DNA of 64,000 nucleotides from a bacterium A37T11 (GTDB lineage Bacteria; Bacteroidota; Bacteroidia; Sphingobacteriales; Sphingobacteriaceae), in NCBI GenBank assembly GCA_900109895.1, contig FOBR01000002.1, positions 62,001 to 126,000 of the forward strand. Reading direction: 5' to 3'. The notes under the pieces are model-generated. The model saw nothing but the letters and a program-made list of their open reading frames with translations. It did not search any database and was not told the DNA's origin. Made by a program: the position numbers and the translations under genes. Shown piece after piece: positions 5,334 to 11,629 of the stretch (the stretch's first letter is position 1; the number at the start of each line of letters is the position of its first letter).

Positions 5334-6077
5334 TTAAATCCCCAATACTTCTTTTAATTTAACATAACCTGTTTTACTGACTGGTACTTTATCTCCATTA
5401 TTTAGGATCACAATATGGCTGTCCTTCTCCAAGGGCTCCAATTTAACAATGGCGTCAATGGTTACAATAAATGAGCGATGGATCCTTATAAAAATGGCTG
5501 GATCCAGTTCCTGTTCAAAATATGCCATTGTTTTGTTTTTAAGAAACCGGCCTTCATTGGTGTGGATCTGAACATAATCATCGTCTGCAGATAAGTAAAT
5601 AATATTGTATACCGGAATAATTTTAATCTTGCTCCCAGTTTTCACAACTACGCGCTCTAGTCTGTTTTGCGGACTATGCAGGTTATTAAGTAATTTTTGC
5701 GTATTTTCTTTTTCGGTTTGTATTTGTTGCTGATCTAAGAATTTGGATATAGCCTTATTAAAGCGCACTTTTGTAATGGGTTTGAGTAAATAATCTACCG
5801 CGTGTTGTTCAAAGGCGCGGATGGCAAATTCATCAAAAGCTGTAGTAAAAATAACCGCTGGGGGTTTATCAAAAAGCTCCAGCATTTCGAAGCCATTAAT
5901 CTTGGGCATTTGTACATCTAGAAAAATAAGGTCAGGATCGTGTTGTAGGATAGCCTTAGCGCCTTCAAAACCATCGTTACATTCTTCTGCAATAACTATT
6001 GAAGGATAGCTTTCCAAATATTCTGCGAGAATACTTCGTGCCAACGGCTCATCGTCAATGAGTAAAATATTGATCAT
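5334..6077 (-). CDS. LytTR family response regulator
   Basis: This is a DNA-binding response regulator of 247 residues. The receiver domain (about 1-120) has the acidic pair IDDE, the phosphorylation site Asp54 in FLDVQMPKINGFE, Thr in FTTAFDE and Lys in YLLKPI. The C-terminal LytTR domain (about 140-245) includes FIRIHRSFIVTIDAI and the usual DGYV-like DDYVQIHT segment. Its start overlaps the stop of the kinase gene by four bases (ATGA), the hallmark of a translationally coupled pair. It probably acts on its own operon and possibly on the neighbouring secreted glycosidase through sites in 8105-8152. Confidence 0.96.
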   Translation of the reverse strand: MINILLIDDEPLARSILAEYLESYPSIVIAEECNDGFEGAKAILQHDPDLIFLDVQMPKINGFEMLELFDKPPAVIFTTAFDEFAIRAFEQHAVDYLLKPITKVRFNKAISKFLDQQQIQTEKENTQKLLNNLHSPQNRLERVVVKTGSKIKIIPVYNIIYLSADDDYVQIHTNEGRFLKNKTMAYFEQELDPAIFIRIHRSFIVTIDAIVKLEPLEKDSHIVILNNGDKVPVSKTGYVKLKEVLGI

Positions 6078-7126
6078 GATTGTGGGATTTTTAGTATACT
6101 GGTAAAGACATTATCGGTAATTCGAGTTTGTAAAAGATCTGTTCGGCCAAATAATAAGTATAAACGGCGGTTTACACCACGCAAACCAAAACCGGTTCCT
6201 TTGCGAGGGGCGTTTTTTGTTGAATCAAATGGGTTCGTCACAGAAATCTCAAGCTGATAACCCTTATAACTAGCTTCGATACATACGGTCACTTTTCCAA
6301 TAGTGTCATATAATCCAAATTTAATGGCATTTTCTACTAAAGGTTGCAAAATCATGGCGGGTAACAACAGCTGCTGGCAGCTTTTATCATATTGAACGTA
6401 GGTATCAAGTCGATGACCAAAACGTACTTTTTCAATTTCCAGATATAGCTGGAGGTGATCTAACTCATCTTTTAGAGGGATAAGCTGCTGGTCATCTTTA
6501 CGAAGTGTACCCCTTAAAAAATCAGAAAGTTGAAAGGTCATATTTCTGGCTTCCTCCGGTTGGCGGCCTATGAGAGCAATAATGGAATTTAAACTGTTAA
6601 ATAAAAAATGTGGTTGCAACTGCTGTCGCAAATTGTAAAGTTCAGCTTCGCGAGCTAAGCGCTCAGCATCGGCTTTTCGCTGTTCATTCTCTTTTTGGTT
6701 TTGTTGTAAATTCCAAAGAATATGAATCGTGGCAATCCAGGCGATAATAATAGCAATTAAGCAAAAACGAATAGGCAACGTATGATCAAATGCGGTTAGA
6801 TAGTCGCCTCCGACTATAAAATACGCGATCGTATATCTTGTGGCAAGCAATGCCAATATCGTTAAACATAATCCCCAGATGGAAATATAGATATATCGAT
6901 CTTTTTTTGGAAGGTAATATATAAGACCATTAGCCATTATATAGCATGCCACACCCACATAAGTGCCACTGATGATGCTATCTTGAAATGAATTACTATT
7001 TGAGGTGCCGAACCACCAAAGCAGTGCACTTTGTATAATTATCCATCCAATCCATATTACCAAGCAGGTAAAAGGTATAAGTCTTAATTTGGAATGGGTA
7101 TTTTGGAAAGGTGACACGTCCTGCAA
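6074..7126 (-). CDS. LytS-type sensor histidine kinase
   Basis: This is a membrane histidine kinase of the His_kinase (PF06580) type. Four hydrophobic segments occupy about residues 17-140, followed by a short coiled coil (about 142-165). The dimerisation/phosphoacceptor block has His173 in QLQPHFLFNSLNSI, and the ATPase domain has LVENAIKFG and a terminal GFGLRGVNRRL. It has no extracellular sensor domain of any size, so sensing is likely through the membrane segments or the LiaF-like partner. No ATG lies at the N-terminus: the start is TTG at 7126 or GTG at 7117. It begins 22 bases after the LiaF-like gene and overlaps the regulator gene by four bases. Confidence 0.94.
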   Translation of the reverse strand: MQDVSPFQNTHSKLRLIPFTCLVIWIGWIIIQSALLWWFGTSNSNSFQDSIISGTYVGVACYIMANGLIYYLPKKDRYIYISIWGLCLTILALLATRYTIAYFIVGGDYLTAFDHTLPIRFCLIAIIIAWIATIHILWNLQQNQKENEQRKADAERLAREAELYNLRQQLQPHFLFNSLNSIIALIGRQPEEARNMTFQLSDFLRGTLRKDDQQLIPLKDELDHLQLYLEIEKVRFGHRLDTYVQYDKSCQQLLLPAMILQPLVENAIKFGLYDTIGKVTVCIEASYKGYQLEISVTNPFDSTKNAPRKGTGFGLRGVNRRLYLLFGRTDLLQTRITDNVFTSILKIPQS

Positions 7127-7148
7127 ATAAAGTTATATGCCGATATAA

Positions 7149-8012
7149 TTACACACTTTTAATCGTTATGCCTCCGAAAATAGAGGTGCCTTTAATATAA
7201 AGGATTCGAGTGTCATCGGGAATGACATTAAAAGTGAAACGCTGATCTTCTACTCCTCCAAAGACCGCAGCCATTTCAGGATGTACGTTCCAATGGGCTG
7301 GAATAATTATTTTAGTACCTCCAAATATTTGAACCACTTCCAATACAACCGGTCCTTGGATATCCGCGTGCATTAGATTAATTTCGGCTCCGCCCATAAT
7401 ATTGACAATTTCTCCGCCTTTAAAATTATTGGATATGACATTTTTTTTGACATTTCCAAAAATGGAAACTGAATCAATATATTCAGCAGTATTTATAGGC
7501 TGATTTATGTCCGGGTTTTCTTCACCGGGCACTGAATGTTTTTTACCATCTCTTGGCTCCCCGATGGGGCGATCGTTGTCGGCAGTATTTATATTTACAC
7601 GTTTATCCCAGTCATATTTTTTTGAATAAAAATTTTTTGTACTGCCATCTCCACCAGAATTAGGTAAGTTTCGATGATGGGATCTGCCAAATATTAACCA
7701 GGATCCCATTACAATAATTAAAATAGGCCAAAAAAGCCGACCGATACTAAAATTAGTATAATTGCTAAGCAGACAAAAAATGCCTATTCCCAGTAATATG
7801 AAAGAGGCAGGTTTTTTGAAATTGGTTCTACCTCCGATAATCAGTCCAATGATGATCATAAAAATAGGCCAGCTAAAAATCCATTCTGGAAAATAAATAA
7901 AAATATTTAGTTGTTTAACCAAAATTAAAGCACCAATAAAGATAATAAAGATGCCAGTCCAAACTCTGCTTGAATTTGATTTATATGATAATCTATTTTT
8001 ATCTGATTCCAT
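7149..8012 (-). CDS. LiaF-like membrane protein
   Basis: A protein of 287 residues. Four hydrophobic segments lie in about residues 18-110 (the DUF5668/LiaF membrane domain). After a polar linker, the C-terminal half contains five spaced repeats of a hydrophobic-G-G pattern (SIFGNV, NIMGGA, QIFGGT, AVFGGV, SIFGGI), the beta-helix fold seen in the LiaF C-terminal domain. In Firmicutes LiaF restrains the LiaS kinase during cell-envelope stress. Here it is the first gene of an operon with a LytS-type kinase and LytTR regulator, which suggests a similar sensing role. The start at 8012 (MESDKNRL) is chosen because the 8054 alternative lies at the expected transcription start. Confidence 0.85.
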   Translation of the reverse strand: MESDKNRLSYKSNSSRVWTGIFIIFIGALILVKQLNIFIYFPEWIFSWPIFMIIIGLIIGGRTNFKKPASFILLGIGIFCLLSNYTNFSIGRLFWPILIIVMGSWLIFGRSHHRNLPNSGGDGSTKNFYSKKYDWDKRVNINTADNDRPIGEPRDGKKHSVPGEENPDINQPINTAEYIDSVSIFGNVKKNVISNNFKGGEIVNIMGGAEINLMHADIQGPVVLEVVQIFGGTKIIIPAHWNVHPEMAAVFGGVEDQRFTFNVIPDDTRILYIKGTSIFGGITIKSV

Positions 8013-8065
8013 TTTTTTATTAATTAAAGTTGCCAACAGTTTACCTAAAACCAACCATTAATAAT

Positions 8066-8095
8066 CAAAGATACCTACTAATTTACTTTTCACAA
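8066..8095 (-). promoter_or_regulatory. Promoter of the LiaF-like/LytS/LytTR operon
   Basis: The minus strand has TATCTTTG at 8073-8066 and TTG at 8095-8093, separated by 19 bases, which matches the Bacteroidota promoter. Transcription should start near 8059, giving a leader of about 47 bases. Confidence 0.6.
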
Positions 8096-8124
8096 CAACA
8101 TACGGGTTACCGTTGTAAAAAAAT

Positions 8125-8152
8125 CGGTAAATAACAATTATTTACCGGTAAA
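8125..8152. promoter_or_regulatory. Candidate operator with CGGTAAA repeats
   Basis: CGGTAAA occurs at 8125-8131 and 8146-8152, exactly 21 bases apart, and inverted at 8141-8147. Together these form a 10-bp inverted repeat (8125-8134 with 8138-8147) and a 12-bp perfect palindrome (8141-8152). Relative to the operon promoter the repeats lie near -66 and -87. LytTR regulators bind direct repeats spaced about two helical turns apart, so this is a plausible site for the regulator at 5334, shared with the divergent gene at 8220. Confidence 0.4.
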
Positions 8153-8219
8153 ACAGTTTCTCAGAAGCAGGATGGTGGCCTGGTTTTTGATTAATTATTC
8201 AATATGAATTGTTTAAGAT

Positions 8220-10523
8220 ATGGGGCTTAAAGTTACGTTAATATTAATCTTCTATTTTTTTGTTGGATTTTTCCAATTGAAAGCTGATACCTATCCAGGA
8301 GTGTTGTTTGAAAACAGTATTTTACCTGGGAATTATTCCGAAAGTAATGCCAGTTTTGAAGGAAATAGTTGGATTCGTCACGCGGCTGGACAAATTCCGG
8401 TAACCGATTCCATTTTCTTTACTCCTGGTAATGCCTTATTGCTAAATTATGTTTCTGCCTCAGGAGGCTTTTGGCATGCCGCCATCAAGTTTGGTCAGGG
8501 CAGGGCCTATTCAACTAACAAATCAGAAAAGTTATCCTTTAAATTATTTGTTCAGGGTAATACCTTGGTATCAGAATTGCCTATGCTGCGCATTATACGT
8601 GACAGTAGCTTATCGAAACCCCTATTCTTGGCTAAGTACATAGATAGTTATCAGCAAAACATGTGGTTCTCCGTTGATATTCCCGTAAATGAACTACAGG
8701 ATTCTTTAGGAGAGGAACCGATAACAGCAGTAGTTTTCTCGCAGGGTAGTACAGATGGGAAAGAACACGCTATATTTATAGATCAGATTGAATTTGTCAC
8801 ATCGACTCCCCCCGAAAGCGCTTTGACCGGACAGGCGGTACTGTCATCTGTTAATGCGTTTGAACGGCACGTTGATTTAAGCTGGCAGCTGCCGCTGACA
8901 CCCAGTATACGGTATATTAAAATCTACCGTTCTGAGGATCAGAAAAATTTCCAGCCTGTGGCTGTCCGGCCTATTTATTACCGAAAGTATACAGATATCG
9001 TACCCATAACTGGCAAATCATATTATTATAAGATTGCCTGGGTTGATTTTCAATACAGGGAGTCCCCCTTTTCGGAGGTAAAAAAGGCAGAAACCAAAGT
9101 TATAACAGACGAAGAACTGCTGGACGCCATCGAGAAAGCACATATCAACTATTTTGTAGAACGAGTGGAGATCAACAGTGCGATGCAAAGGACCAGTAAT
9201 TCTCAAAAAAATGCCACTGTATCAGTTAAAAATACTGGAGCTGGTATTTTAGCACTTATTGCAGGAGCTGAAAGAAACAGCATTTCACGTGAAGCTTTGC
9301 TGATGAGACTGAATAAGATGACGGATTTTTTATCTAAGGCTGACAGATTTAATGGTGCTTGGCCTAAATATATCAATGGACGAACGGGCAAAATAGTGCC
9401 TGATACTAGTGGTAGGATTGAAGGGGATCTAGAATCAACAGCATTTTTAATGCAAGGCCTTTTATGTGCCAGGCAATATTTTAATAAGGATGATAGGGCA
9501 GAAGCTGATCTCAGAGAACACATAACTTTATTATGGGAATCTGTTAATTGGTCAGACTTTACGGTTACAACCAATGGTCTCTATTTATATAATACTTGGT
9601 CGCCCGCCAGCGAGTGGGCGTTTAGCCATCCTATGGGGGGGTATAATACCAGTTTCATCAGTTATTTTTTAGCCATTGCTTCTCCAAAACATGCCATTTC
9701 ACCCATTTCCTATGCACAGGCTTATGCACGTCCCTTAATTCCATTGGATACCGTTTGGAACTCATTTACCTTAAAAGAAATTGCAGAAAAAAACAACCAA
9801 AAATTGCCATTTACAACCAAGGAGAAGCAACTGTTAAAAGAAAATCAATCGATTAGCGAAGAAGAAAAAATGTGGTTAACGACCAAATTATTAAAACAAC
9901 AAAGTCTTTTAAAAAAAGACAGCCTACTGTACGATACGGTGATATTTGACTCCATTTCCGGAAAGAGCAAAAACTTTTTAAGGAAGCAGTATGTTAATGA
10001 TTCTGTATATTTTGGTGTAAAACTTAAAGTAGGTTCGGTGTTACAACCGCTCACCGAAGCAATGAGTCTTTATATGGCTTTTGATCCAAGAAAAAAGCAA
10101 GACGCGTTTTGTAACTATTTTCTTAATATGACTAATCTAACGAAAATACACTATCGGAAGGATGTGAGTTCGGTTTTTTTACCAGTACAGGTATCTCAGG
10201 ATATTTGGGGATATGCCGATGACATTGCAGCCAAAGGAGTCATCCATCCCGCTGCTGCCGTTGCCGCTTATCCTTATTTACCTACAGCAGCCCTAAAAGT
10301 GATGGGTAAATATTACAGGCAATTCGGATATTTTCTTTTTGCTGAGTATGGATTTCGGCGAGCCTTCAATTTAAATAAGAACTGGGTAGAGGATGATTAT
10401 GATGGTTTGGATCAGGCGCTGGTGGCAGTCAATATCGAAAATGCCCGCACCGGGCTCATTTGGAAATTATTTATGCAAGATCCGGATATTAGCAAAGCTT
10501 CTGAAAAGTTATTTGCTGAATAA
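8220..10523 (+). CDS. Secreted glycoamylase-like protein (GH144-related)
   Basis: A 767-residue protein with a hydrophobic signal peptide (residues 1-22). The N-terminal part looks like a carbohydrate-binding beta domain (about 25-195), then a fibronectin type III-like domain (about 205-290). The rest resembles the glycoamylase-like family PF10091, which includes GH144 beta-1,2-glucanases: IEGDLESTAFLMQGLL, YNTWSPASEWAFSHPMGGYN and SYFLAIASPKHAISP fit its conserved blocks. An unusual lysine- and serine-rich insertion (about 515-590) interrupts the alpha/alpha barrel. The C-terminal block YGFRRAFNLNKNWVEDDYDGLDQ is typical. The substrate is unknown. It is divergent from the LiaF/Lyt operon and shares its regulatory region. 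Confidence 0.78.
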   Translation: MGLKVTLILIFYFFVGFFQLKADTYPGVLFENSILPGNYSESNASFEGNSWIRHAAGQIPVTDSIFFTPGNALLLNYVSASGGFWHAAIKFGQGRAYSTNKSEKLSFKLFVQGNTLVSELPMLRIIRDSSLSKPLFLAKYIDSYQQNMWFSVDIPVNELQDSLGEEPITAVVFSQGSTDGKEHAIFIDQIEFVTSTPPESALTGQAVLSSVNAFERHVDLSWQLPLTPSIRYIKIYRSEDQKNFQPVAVRPIYYRKYTDIVPITGKSYYYKIAWVDFQYRESPFSEVKKAETKVITDEELLDAIEKAHINYFVERVEINSAMQRTSNSQKNATVSVKNTGAGILALIAGAERNSISREALLMRLNKMTDFLSKADRFNGAWPKYINGRTGKIVPDTSGRIEGDLESTAFLMQGLLCARQYFNKDDRAEADLREHITLLWESVNWSDFTVTTNGLYLYNTWSPASEWAFSHPMGGYNTSFISYFLAIASPKHAISPISYAQAYARPLIPLDTVWNSFTLKEIAEKNNQKLPFTTKEKQLLKENQSISEEEKMWLTTKLLKQQSLLKKDSLLYDTVIFDSISGKSKNFLRKQYVNDSVYFGVKLKVGSVLQPLTEAMSLYMAFDPRKKQDAFCNYFLNMTNLTKIHYRKDVSSVFLPVQVSQDIWGYADDIAAKGVIHPAAAVAAYPYLPTAALKVMGKYYRQFGYFLFAEYGFRRAFNLNKNWVEDDYDGLDQALVAVNIENARTGLIWKLFMQDPDISKASEKLFAE

Positions 10524-10786: not shown

Positions 10787-11629
10787 ATGAAAGGGCTTAA
10801 ACTACTAATATTAGGTGATAAGCCAGAAAATATTACTAGTATGGAAAGGCTTTTGGATGACATCGAAGGTCTGGATGTATTAAGTGCCACGACAGAGGAA
10901 GAGGCGGTAAAGATCTGCCTATATTATGATGTATCTATTATTTTAATGGATAAGCATGGATCTGGTGTATACAGACAGGGTTATGCTGGTTTTTTGTCAA
11001 AAATACCTAACCAACATGAACCAACCATCCTGGCTGTGACAGACCATGGACTTAGAAACAGCATTGGTCGTTCATCCAATAGTGTTATTGAATATTTGTA
11101 TCGCCCCATTGATGATAGCAGAATAAAAACTAAAGTTAAGTTATTAGTACAATTACTTCAGGCTCGCAGATTGCTTCATTCTGATGAAGATCGTTATGAA
11201 TCAGATAAGGATGGAGGGCAATCTTTTAACACCTCCCTGCAGCTTGATGACGGGCTTGTTGGAAAACGGGCTTTACTTGCAGAGGATAACGAATTAAATA
11301 GTTTTATGGTGGTCCATATGCTAAATAGCTGGGGTATGGAAGCAGACGTGGTAAGTAATGGAAAAGATGCGCTTGAACAATTAATGAACGTGCGATATGA
11401 TATAATTTTGATGGATACTCATATGCCAGTAATGGGTGGTTATGACACCATGAATTTTATTAGGAACAGCTTCTCAGACCCTTTAAATAAAATTCCAATT
11501 ATTTCCTTATCAGCTTCGGTCATGGAAGAGGAACAGGAAGCCGCTAAAAAATTTGGTGCCAACGACGTTGTTGGTAAGCCATTCCACCCAGACATGCTCC
11601 ATGAAAAAATTCTTAGTTTACTCGGTTAG
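10787..11629 (+). CDS. Tandem receiver-domain protein
   Basis: A 280-residue protein made of two CheY-like receiver domains and no output domain. The first (about 1-130) is degenerate: it keeps a possible acceptor in IILMDKHG, but the conserved Lys is replaced by Arg in YLYRPI and the N-terminal acidic pair is incomplete. The second (about 160-280) is complete, with AEDNE, acceptor Asp in IILMDTHMPVMGGYD, Ser in ISLSASV and Lys in VGKPFHP. Such proteins usually relay phosphate inside hybrid phosphorelays or control a partner by binding. No kinase is adjacent, so its partner lies elsewhere. Confidence 0.88.
   Translation: MKGLKLLILGDKPENITSMERLLDDIEGLDVLSATTEEEAVKICLYYDVSIILMDKHGSGVYRQGYAGFLSKIPNQHEPTILAVTDHGLRNSIGRSSNSVIEYLYRPIDDSRIKTKVKLLVQLLQARRLLHSDEDRYESDKDGGQSFNTSLQLDDGLVGKRALLAEDNELNSFMVVHMLNSWGMEADVVSNGKDALEQLMNVRYDIILMDTHMPVMGGYDTMNFIRNSFSDPLNKIPIISLSASVMEEEQEAAKKFGANDVVGKPFHPDMLHEKILSLLG

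Follow-up and report, generated by a model that had tools for sequence, protein, structure and literature searches.

What does a membrane protein of the LiaF type do when it is encoded together with a LytS-type histidine kinase and a LytTR response regulator, and what is the role of a direct repeat that lies in front of its gene? The question is raised by a locus of the bacterium A37T11 (Bacteroidota, Sphingobacteriaceae; assembly GCA_900109895.1) within a stretch of 64,000 nucleotides (contig FOBR01000002.1, positions 62,001 to 126,000 of the forward strand), hereafter called the window, in whose numbering coordinates are given. A sequence-only reading of the window had linked the liaF-like gene to a LytS/LytTR pair and to a repeat of CGGTAAA in the geometry used by LytTR proteins, and had suggested wall or glucan stress as the theme. 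Here, we report that, at the level of sequence, T[TC]ACCGA repeats, two strong and one weak, stand at a near-fixed distance from -33 and -7 promoter elements, both before this operon and before other genes that recur in relatives, many of which belong to the envelope. We consider it likely that the locus is an autoregulated envelope-stress system resembling the Lia and phage shock protein (PSP) systems, with a LytTR output, in which a membrane-sensing operon controls itself and an envelope-stress regulon.

A predicted operator in front of liaF

The intergenic region 8013-8219 is common to the liaF operon and a divergent glycoamylase-like gene. CGGTAAA occurs there in exact copies at 8125-8131 and 8146-8152, spaced by 21 bp as had been claimed, and reads TTTACCG on the minus strand; it is the complement of the half-site motif T[TC]ACCG. 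On the minus strand the predicted operator comprises half-site 1 at 8145..8152 (TTTACCGG), half-site 2 at 8124..8131 (TTTACCGA), 21 bp from the first, and a degenerate half-site 3 at 8101..8109 (TAACCCGTA), which is 21 bp beyond half-site 2 and 14 bp ahead of the -33 element. The latter, TTG at 8093..8095 (-), is followed after a 19-nt spacer by the -7 element TATCTTTG at 8066..8073 (-), 78 nt from half-site 1. For the main sigma factor of B. fragilis, TAnnTTTG and TTTG have been reported as the -7 and -33 elements (PMC7366714), and the predicted promoter toward liaF is of this Bacteroidota type. Transcription would start near 8060; the repeats would then lie at about -65 and -86, and the earlier estimate of -66 and -87 differs little from this. 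The LytTR-like geometry of the direct repeat was borne out, with the amendment that the repeat belongs to a predicted operator of three half-sites; the third half-site, an inverted repeat with a run of T (T7) and the conservation upstream of orthologues had been overlooked. By itself the repeat in the window is at most suggestive: when its intergenic region was dinucleotide-shuffled 2000 times, some 7-mer direct repeat at 21 bp appeared in 61 of the shuffled sequences.

Homologues of LiaF were detected in 37 of 60 genomes, the source genome included, and 80 liaF loci of relatives (Olivibacter, Parapedobacter, Pedobacter, Mucilaginibacter, Daejeonella and kin; best segments 35-51% identical) were joined with the window into a set of 81 loci. 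T[TC]ACCG was present within 350 nt upstream in 80 of the 81, with at least two copies in 67, and 65 pairs were spaced by exactly 21 bp. By comparison, 200 rounds of dinucleotide shuffling gave a mean of 10.1 loci with a half-site and 0.02 pairs at 20-22 bp. Absence of such conservation at orthologous operons had been named as what would speak against the repeat. A half-site pair was assigned to 79 loci, 65 by the strict pattern and 14 by a loose one, and to the remaining 2 none. With position 0 set at the first T of T[TC]ACCG, these 79 loci give a logo that reads TTYACCGA at 0 and again at 21, followed by the third half-site at positions 42-50 (C45 0.86, C46 0.91) and the T of the -33 element at position 56 (0.96). 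The register was set with a pattern that itself dictates the core positions of the logo; conserved outside that pattern are the A at 6 (0.86), the A at 27 (0.97), the CC of the third half-site and the -33 T. Four of the 79 rows (L040, L042, L043, L103) stand one repeat out of register in the logo and were corrected for the counts of distance to the -7 element, by which TAnnTTTG lies 78, 79 and 80 nt from half-site 1 in 6, 54 and 6 matches, respectively, with 11 loci lacking the box. The three half-sites, being spaced by 21 bp, therefore fall on one face of the DNA. A half-site 58 nt ahead of the -7 element, the distance of half-site 2, was found also at L031, outside the family, and at L027, which is a weak homologue within the family; this is a hint that the operator has a deeper origin.

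A conserved liaF-lytS-lytTR operon

All three genes form one minus-strand operon, in which the kinase stop and the regulator start overlap by 4 nt, and the proposed combination of a LiaF-like gene with a LytS/LytTR pair is supported by Pfam and by the operon order in relatives. The LiaF-like membrane protein (7149..8012, minus strand, 287 aa) has a helical transmembrane (TM) region and a C-terminal beta domain that is probably Toastrack-like. Its LiaF-TM domain scores 66.5 bits (cut-off 27) and its LiaF-like_C domain 26.4 bits, under the cut-off of 29, while 26 of 26 aligned LiaF homologues match three models at E 0.001 or better. The AlphaFold model (mean pLDDT 71.3, pTM 0.44) has as its best Foldseek match 4qrk (prob 1.00, E 4.6e-3, TMt 0.39, rmsd 5.5), a structure cited as an example of Toastrack (PMC11237479). 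The LytS-type membrane histidine kinase (PF06580; 6074..7126, minus strand, 350 aa, with an uncertain TTG start codon at 7126) carries a His_kinase domain of 93 bits, and its PHFLFN box with H173, together with N266 and G312, is at least 98% identical across 78 aligned orthologues. The response regulator of REC-LytTR type (5334..6077, minus strand, 247 aa) matches LytTR at 86.9 bits and Response_reg at 76.5 bits, both above the Pfam cut-off, and has an intact phospho-acceptor site, with identity of at least 98% at D8, D9, D54 and K99 among 76 aligned orthologues. Its best relative in NCBIfam is BtsR, at 191.6 bits and under the cut-off of 246 for that model.

The kinase gene follows liaF at 78 and the regulator gene at 76 of the 81 loci; three misses in each count are at contig ends, and two regulators (L042, L050) were missed by the search motif. 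By this gene order, Sphingobacteriaceae and kin share a conserved liaF-lytS-lytTR operon. In some relatives (L013, L021, L025, L027, L028), liaF and the kinase gene are separated by a frame of about 110-126 aa.

Further sites in the source genome and its relatives

A sequence-only operator model, R1, was built from 61 operators. In the source genome it identified two strong sites, one at the liaF operon (E 6.1e-6) and one at 8686-8738 of contig C20 (E 6.8e-6), which was not among the operators used to build it; the next match was weaker (E 0.019). The C20 site precedes the gene of a 142-aa protein of the Lumazine_bd_2 type (PF12893), which we take to be NTF2-like and which is probably secreted, from the look of its N-terminus. 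In the 59 relatives searched, R1 matched at E 0.01 or better in 29 of 36 genomes of the family and in none of 23 genomes of other families. These E-values are understated, as 7 of the 23 outside genomes match at E 0.05 or better where about one is expected, the best at 0.0135; matches stronger than these alone were relied on.

The first-round set comprised 40 matches away from the liaF operon at E 0.0025 or better, the C20 site included, and 37 of the 40 downstream genes were covered by a Pfam scan (L231, L233 and L240 were left out). Among the predicted targets were 8 Lumazine_bd_2-type proteins (6 above cut-off), 7 repeat proteins without a clear Pfam match, 6 proteins of the outer-membrane barrel type (one cut by a contig end), 4 members of the LiaF family, 2 each of DUF2807 and TM2, and one each of PspC, DUF4342 and DUF4097 Toastrack. 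No PspA was seen among the 37 scanned proteins, in a scan that included no search aimed at PspA. The -7 box, which is not part of R1, lay at exactly 79 nt in 24 of the 40 sites, at 58 nt in 3 where the anchor is one repeat off, and elsewhere in one. Six of the genes behind R1 sites (L216, L217, L225, L230, L234, L241) encode small, probably secreted proteins with APMxYGNPxExAPExL-like repeats, a family without a clear Pfam match that recurs in the predicted regulon of several genera. Genome G021, where no liaF match was found, has a regulator homologue with stop codons (G021:C9:19482-20121) and an operator (L231) before a short frame; the system looks as if it were decaying there.

Pairs of this repeat elsewhere in the genome, which the sequence-only reading had put forward as a check, are uninformative alone. 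A bare CGGTAA pair at 21 bp had 6 matches genome-wide versus 3 in the reversed control, and TTYACCG pairs allowing one mismatch had 32 versus 27; some matches of these searches represent 21-nt tandem repeats (C28) or fall within open reading frames (ORFs; L119, L122, L128). The array at G000:C28:139475-139821 has a period of 21 nt that mimics the operator spacing and may be the gene of a repeat protein.

Because the E-values of R1 are understated, a composite pattern of 87 nt, TYACCG-N15-TYACCGA-N51-TAnnTTTG, was added together with its reversed form as control. It was present in 74 of 121 family genomes, the source genome included by way of its C20 site, and the reversed control in none. Strict matches in genomes G060-G143 numbered 109, of which two at contig ends (G108:C37, G141:C93) were dropped to give a census of 107 sites; strict matches in G000-G036 fall outside it. 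Forty sites precede the liaF operon and 67 lie elsewhere, before genes for Lumazine_bd_2-type (NTF2-like) proteins (21), PspC (9), other LiaF (9), DUF4342 (7), outer-membrane barrels (5), repeat proteins (5), SDR (2) and DUF5916 (1), with 8 left without label, five of these without an ORF. Since labels were given by BLAST to first-round proteins, the census could recognise the first-round families alone, and LiaF was split from liaF-operon labels by the best BLAST match only. When ten labels were checked by Pfam, L359, L371 and L280 fell under cut-off, L280 matching DUF4878 and not Lumazine_bd_2. Three of the nine PspC proteins, checked by Pfam, are PspC fused to a TM region of the LiaI-LiaF type. 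PspC thus appears under the predicted operator in relatives (1 of 40 first-round sites, 9 of 107 in the census) and at neither strong site of the source genome.

As downstream gene we took the longest ATG frame whose start is no more than 150 nt from the -7 element, or else the first within 400 nt, and the distance between the two is at most 100 nt in 99 of 102 sites; such short distances are partly a matter of choice, as the rule favours near frames. Some assemblies are shared with the 80-locus set (for example G077:C22 / L076 and G131:C72 / L054), so that independence from R1 does not hold for the 40 liaF-operon sites; the 67 others had not been used before. In these 67, positions outside the search pattern again show the third half-site (C45 0.81, C46 0.96, T47 0.85, A48 0.93) and the -33 T (T56 0.93). 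In one relative, three NTF2-like genes stand in a row, each with a full operator and promoter of its own (L371-L373; G075:C11:267800-270990).

A proposed mode of action

In an autoregulated envelope-stress system of this kind, LiaF would sense disturbance of the membrane or the wall. LiaF may restrain the LytS-type kinase much as it acts on LiaS in Bacillus, where LiaF is a negative regulator of LiaRS (PMC9239133), and stress would lift the restraint. The kinase would then phosphorylate the regulator at D54, and the regulator would fill the three sites head to tail, on one face of the DNA and at 21-bp spacing, where it could contact or recruit RNA polymerase beside the -33 element. It would thereby activate its own operon, in positive feedback, along with protective envelope genes. 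The output in the source genome would be the gene of the probably secreted NTF2-like protein, and in relatives would also include PspC, PspC-LiaF fusions, LiaF paralogues, DUF4342, Toastrack-type and outer-membrane proteins. Binding by the regulator, activation in preference to repression, and the signal are parts of this scheme that we infer. That the operon's own regulator is the one that binds is suggested by linkage, the liaF operon being the commonest target (40 of 107 census sites), and by the conservation of the regulator's receiver and LytTR residues. The composite pattern is also missing from all 12 genomes of genera g6 and g11, of which the four members tested (G005, G010, G029, G032) have no strong liaF match; this is weak evidence, because the pattern is missing too from 12 genomes of genus g19, one of which has the operon.

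Alternative explanations

The evidence from relatives that the direct repeat is real is overwhelming. Chance could be entertained for the window, given the frequency of 7-mer repeats in its shuffled intergenic region; conservation and phasing in relatives, with the repeat found upstream of orthologues, reduce it to a negligible probability. The same letters could also act as a terminator or attenuator of the minus strand with no regulator binding, as a perfect inverted repeat of 10 bp followed by T7 spans 8125..8147 (-) and scores as a minus-strand terminator. Inverted repeats with perfect arms of 7 or longer are found in only 2 of 79 operators, the window's among them, whereas the direct repeat is kept, and the next upstream gene, for the glycoamylase, is on the opposite strand. 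This highly improbable reading was dropped for want of conservation of the feature, and the inverted repeat is probably a by-product of the two half-sites.

A true operator need not serve the operon's own regulator. The source genome has 15 LytTR matches, and three family genomes without a strong liaF match nevertheless carry an R1 match, so that another factor or another LytTR protein might bind the sites, the operon being one of its targets. We judge this to be quite unlikely in view of the rank of the operon among the targets, the lack of any R1 match at E 0.01 in the 23 outside-family genomes and, as the weaker argument given above, the absence of the strict pattern from the g6 and g11 genomes. 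A different possibility, unlikely in our opinion, is that the operon's LytTR protein does bind and that the signal is a nutrient or metabolite, as pyruvate is for BtsSR, the envelope genes being only part of the output. BtsR is the nearest NCBIfam model of the regulator, and an oligonucleotide from the E. coli yjiY (btsT) promoter has repeats with an ACC or GCC core at 9, 29 and 50, with spacings of 20 and 21 bp, a likeness which agrees with that model assignment; moreover, many targets are proteins of the NTF2-like or barrel type that carry no stress annotation. On the other side, the targets repeatedly include PspC, LiaF paralogues, DUF4342 and Toastrack domains, and LiaF is encoded alongside the kinase, an association that carries no count as the loci were chosen by LiaF.

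Several observations weigh against the autoregulated envelope-stress system itself. Beyond the number of LytTR matches in the source genome, the composite pattern is missing from 47 of the 121 family genomes. The 12 genomes of genus g19 all fall in this group, and one of them, G018, does possess the operon together with an R1 match (6.3e-7). Among the 29 first-set liaF loci, L026, L027, L028 and L029 (G023, G007, G031, G022) have no half-site pair even loosely; L005 is likewise without one, but its start is mis-set and its genome, G003, has an R1 match at 8.7e-8. In the first round, 8 of the 40 sites precede genes outside the recurrent sets (others or none) and 12 have no -7 consensus within 170 nt. 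The R1 matches in genomes without strong liaF are those of G005, G010 and G021, the former two being weak. Targets of the NTF2-like, repeat and outer-membrane types are not specific to stress, and the envelope regulon is read mostly from relatives, since neither site of the source genome precedes pspC or a second liaF.

Relation to known systems

The locus shares with LiaFSR of Bacillus and VraTSR of Staphylococcus the encoding of a LiaF-TM protein, here probably of Toastrack type, with a membrane kinase and a response regulator, and the predicted targets in relatives include LiaI/LiaF/PspC-type proteins as in LiaFSR. It differs in its kinase of the LytS type (PF06580) and its LytTR output, that of LiaR being a winged helix-turn-helix (PMC11237479), as well as in a direct-repeat operator at 21 bp and a Bacteroidota -33/-7 promoter. 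As the output domain is LytTR and not helix-turn-helix, we do not class it as LiaFSR, though it perhaps works alike. A 2024 survey of PSP systems describes LytTR in operons with LiaI-LiaF-TM/Toastrack in Firmicutes (PMC11237479), and the domain pairing is the same; the case presented there is a gene neighbourhood with one example, whereas here a kinase-regulator operon in Bacteroidota comes with an operator, a promoter and a predicted regulon. For Bacteroidota, PspC has been proposed to act in the stress response (PMC9239133), in line with the targets predicted here; the PSP networks outlined in that source come without an operator, and LytTR has 0 occurrences in its main text.

The kinase and regulator classes are those of BtsSR and YpdAB of E. 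coli. Spacing is a further likeness, through the ACC-core repeats of the btsT oligonucleotide and the YpdB repeats, which are likewise 21 bp apart (oligonucleotide positions 27 and 48). The two systems are described with pyruvate as signal and with other targets, and to our knowledge neither includes a LiaF. The locus is not a LytTR regulatory system (LRS) either, because a PF06580 kinase is present between LiaF and the regulator; streptococcal LRS are not known to include a kinase. LytTR sites in general are repeats of 9-11 nt with 11-13 nt between them (PMC4847170). In S. mutans, autoregulation takes place through repeats just upstream of the -35 element, and LRS-like LytTR operons of Bacteroides are preceded by direct repeats (PMC6193735). 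Autoregulation by such repeats, about 10 bp ahead of the promoter, would be a trait shared with the present locus. The streptococcal regulator is paired with an inhibitory membrane protein, and the Bacteroides regulators have TM segments of their own, with no LiaF or regulon in the account given of them (PMC6193735).

The divergent neighbour

Pfam assigns the divergent gene at 8220..10523 (+) to glycoamylase-like proteins (PF10091). It had been put forward as a possible link between wall or glucan stress and the output of the system. An envelope role is supported by the predicted regulon of relatives, while the link to the glycoamylase is not: by tblastn the gene adjoins liaF at only 5 of the 80 loci of relatives, the operator and promoter elements face liaF, and no site points toward the glycoamylase gene. 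It was dropped as an output and is regarded as a neighbour whose membership in the system is unsupported. Adjoining it, 10787-11629 encodes a protein in which two stretches are of receiver type and Pfam finds no output domain.

Implications

The pairing of LiaF with LytTR is not wholly new (PMC11237479); an operator or regulon of such a system in Bacteroidota was not found described in the open-licence PMC literature. The locus provides an example of a LiaF sensor coupled to a different class of kinase and DNA-binding protein. Its operator code lets a probable envelope-stress regulon be read directly from Bacteroidota sequence, with a testable prediction for each promoter, and likely places under common control a number of uncharacterised families of membrane and probably secreted proteins (Lumazine_bd_2-type, DUF4342, TM2 and the repeat family without a clear Pfam match). 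On balance we favour the view that an undescribed envelope-stress response exists in Sphingobacteriaceae and perhaps in Bacteroidota at large. Its LiaF-type sensor would act via LytS/LytTR on an operator of three half-sites in rigid phase with the -33/-7 promoter, and its regulon of PspC, PspC-LiaF fusions, LiaF paralogues, DUF4342, Toastrack, TM2, NTF2-like and repeat proteins and outer-membrane barrels may be an analogue of the PSP and Lia responses with new effectors.

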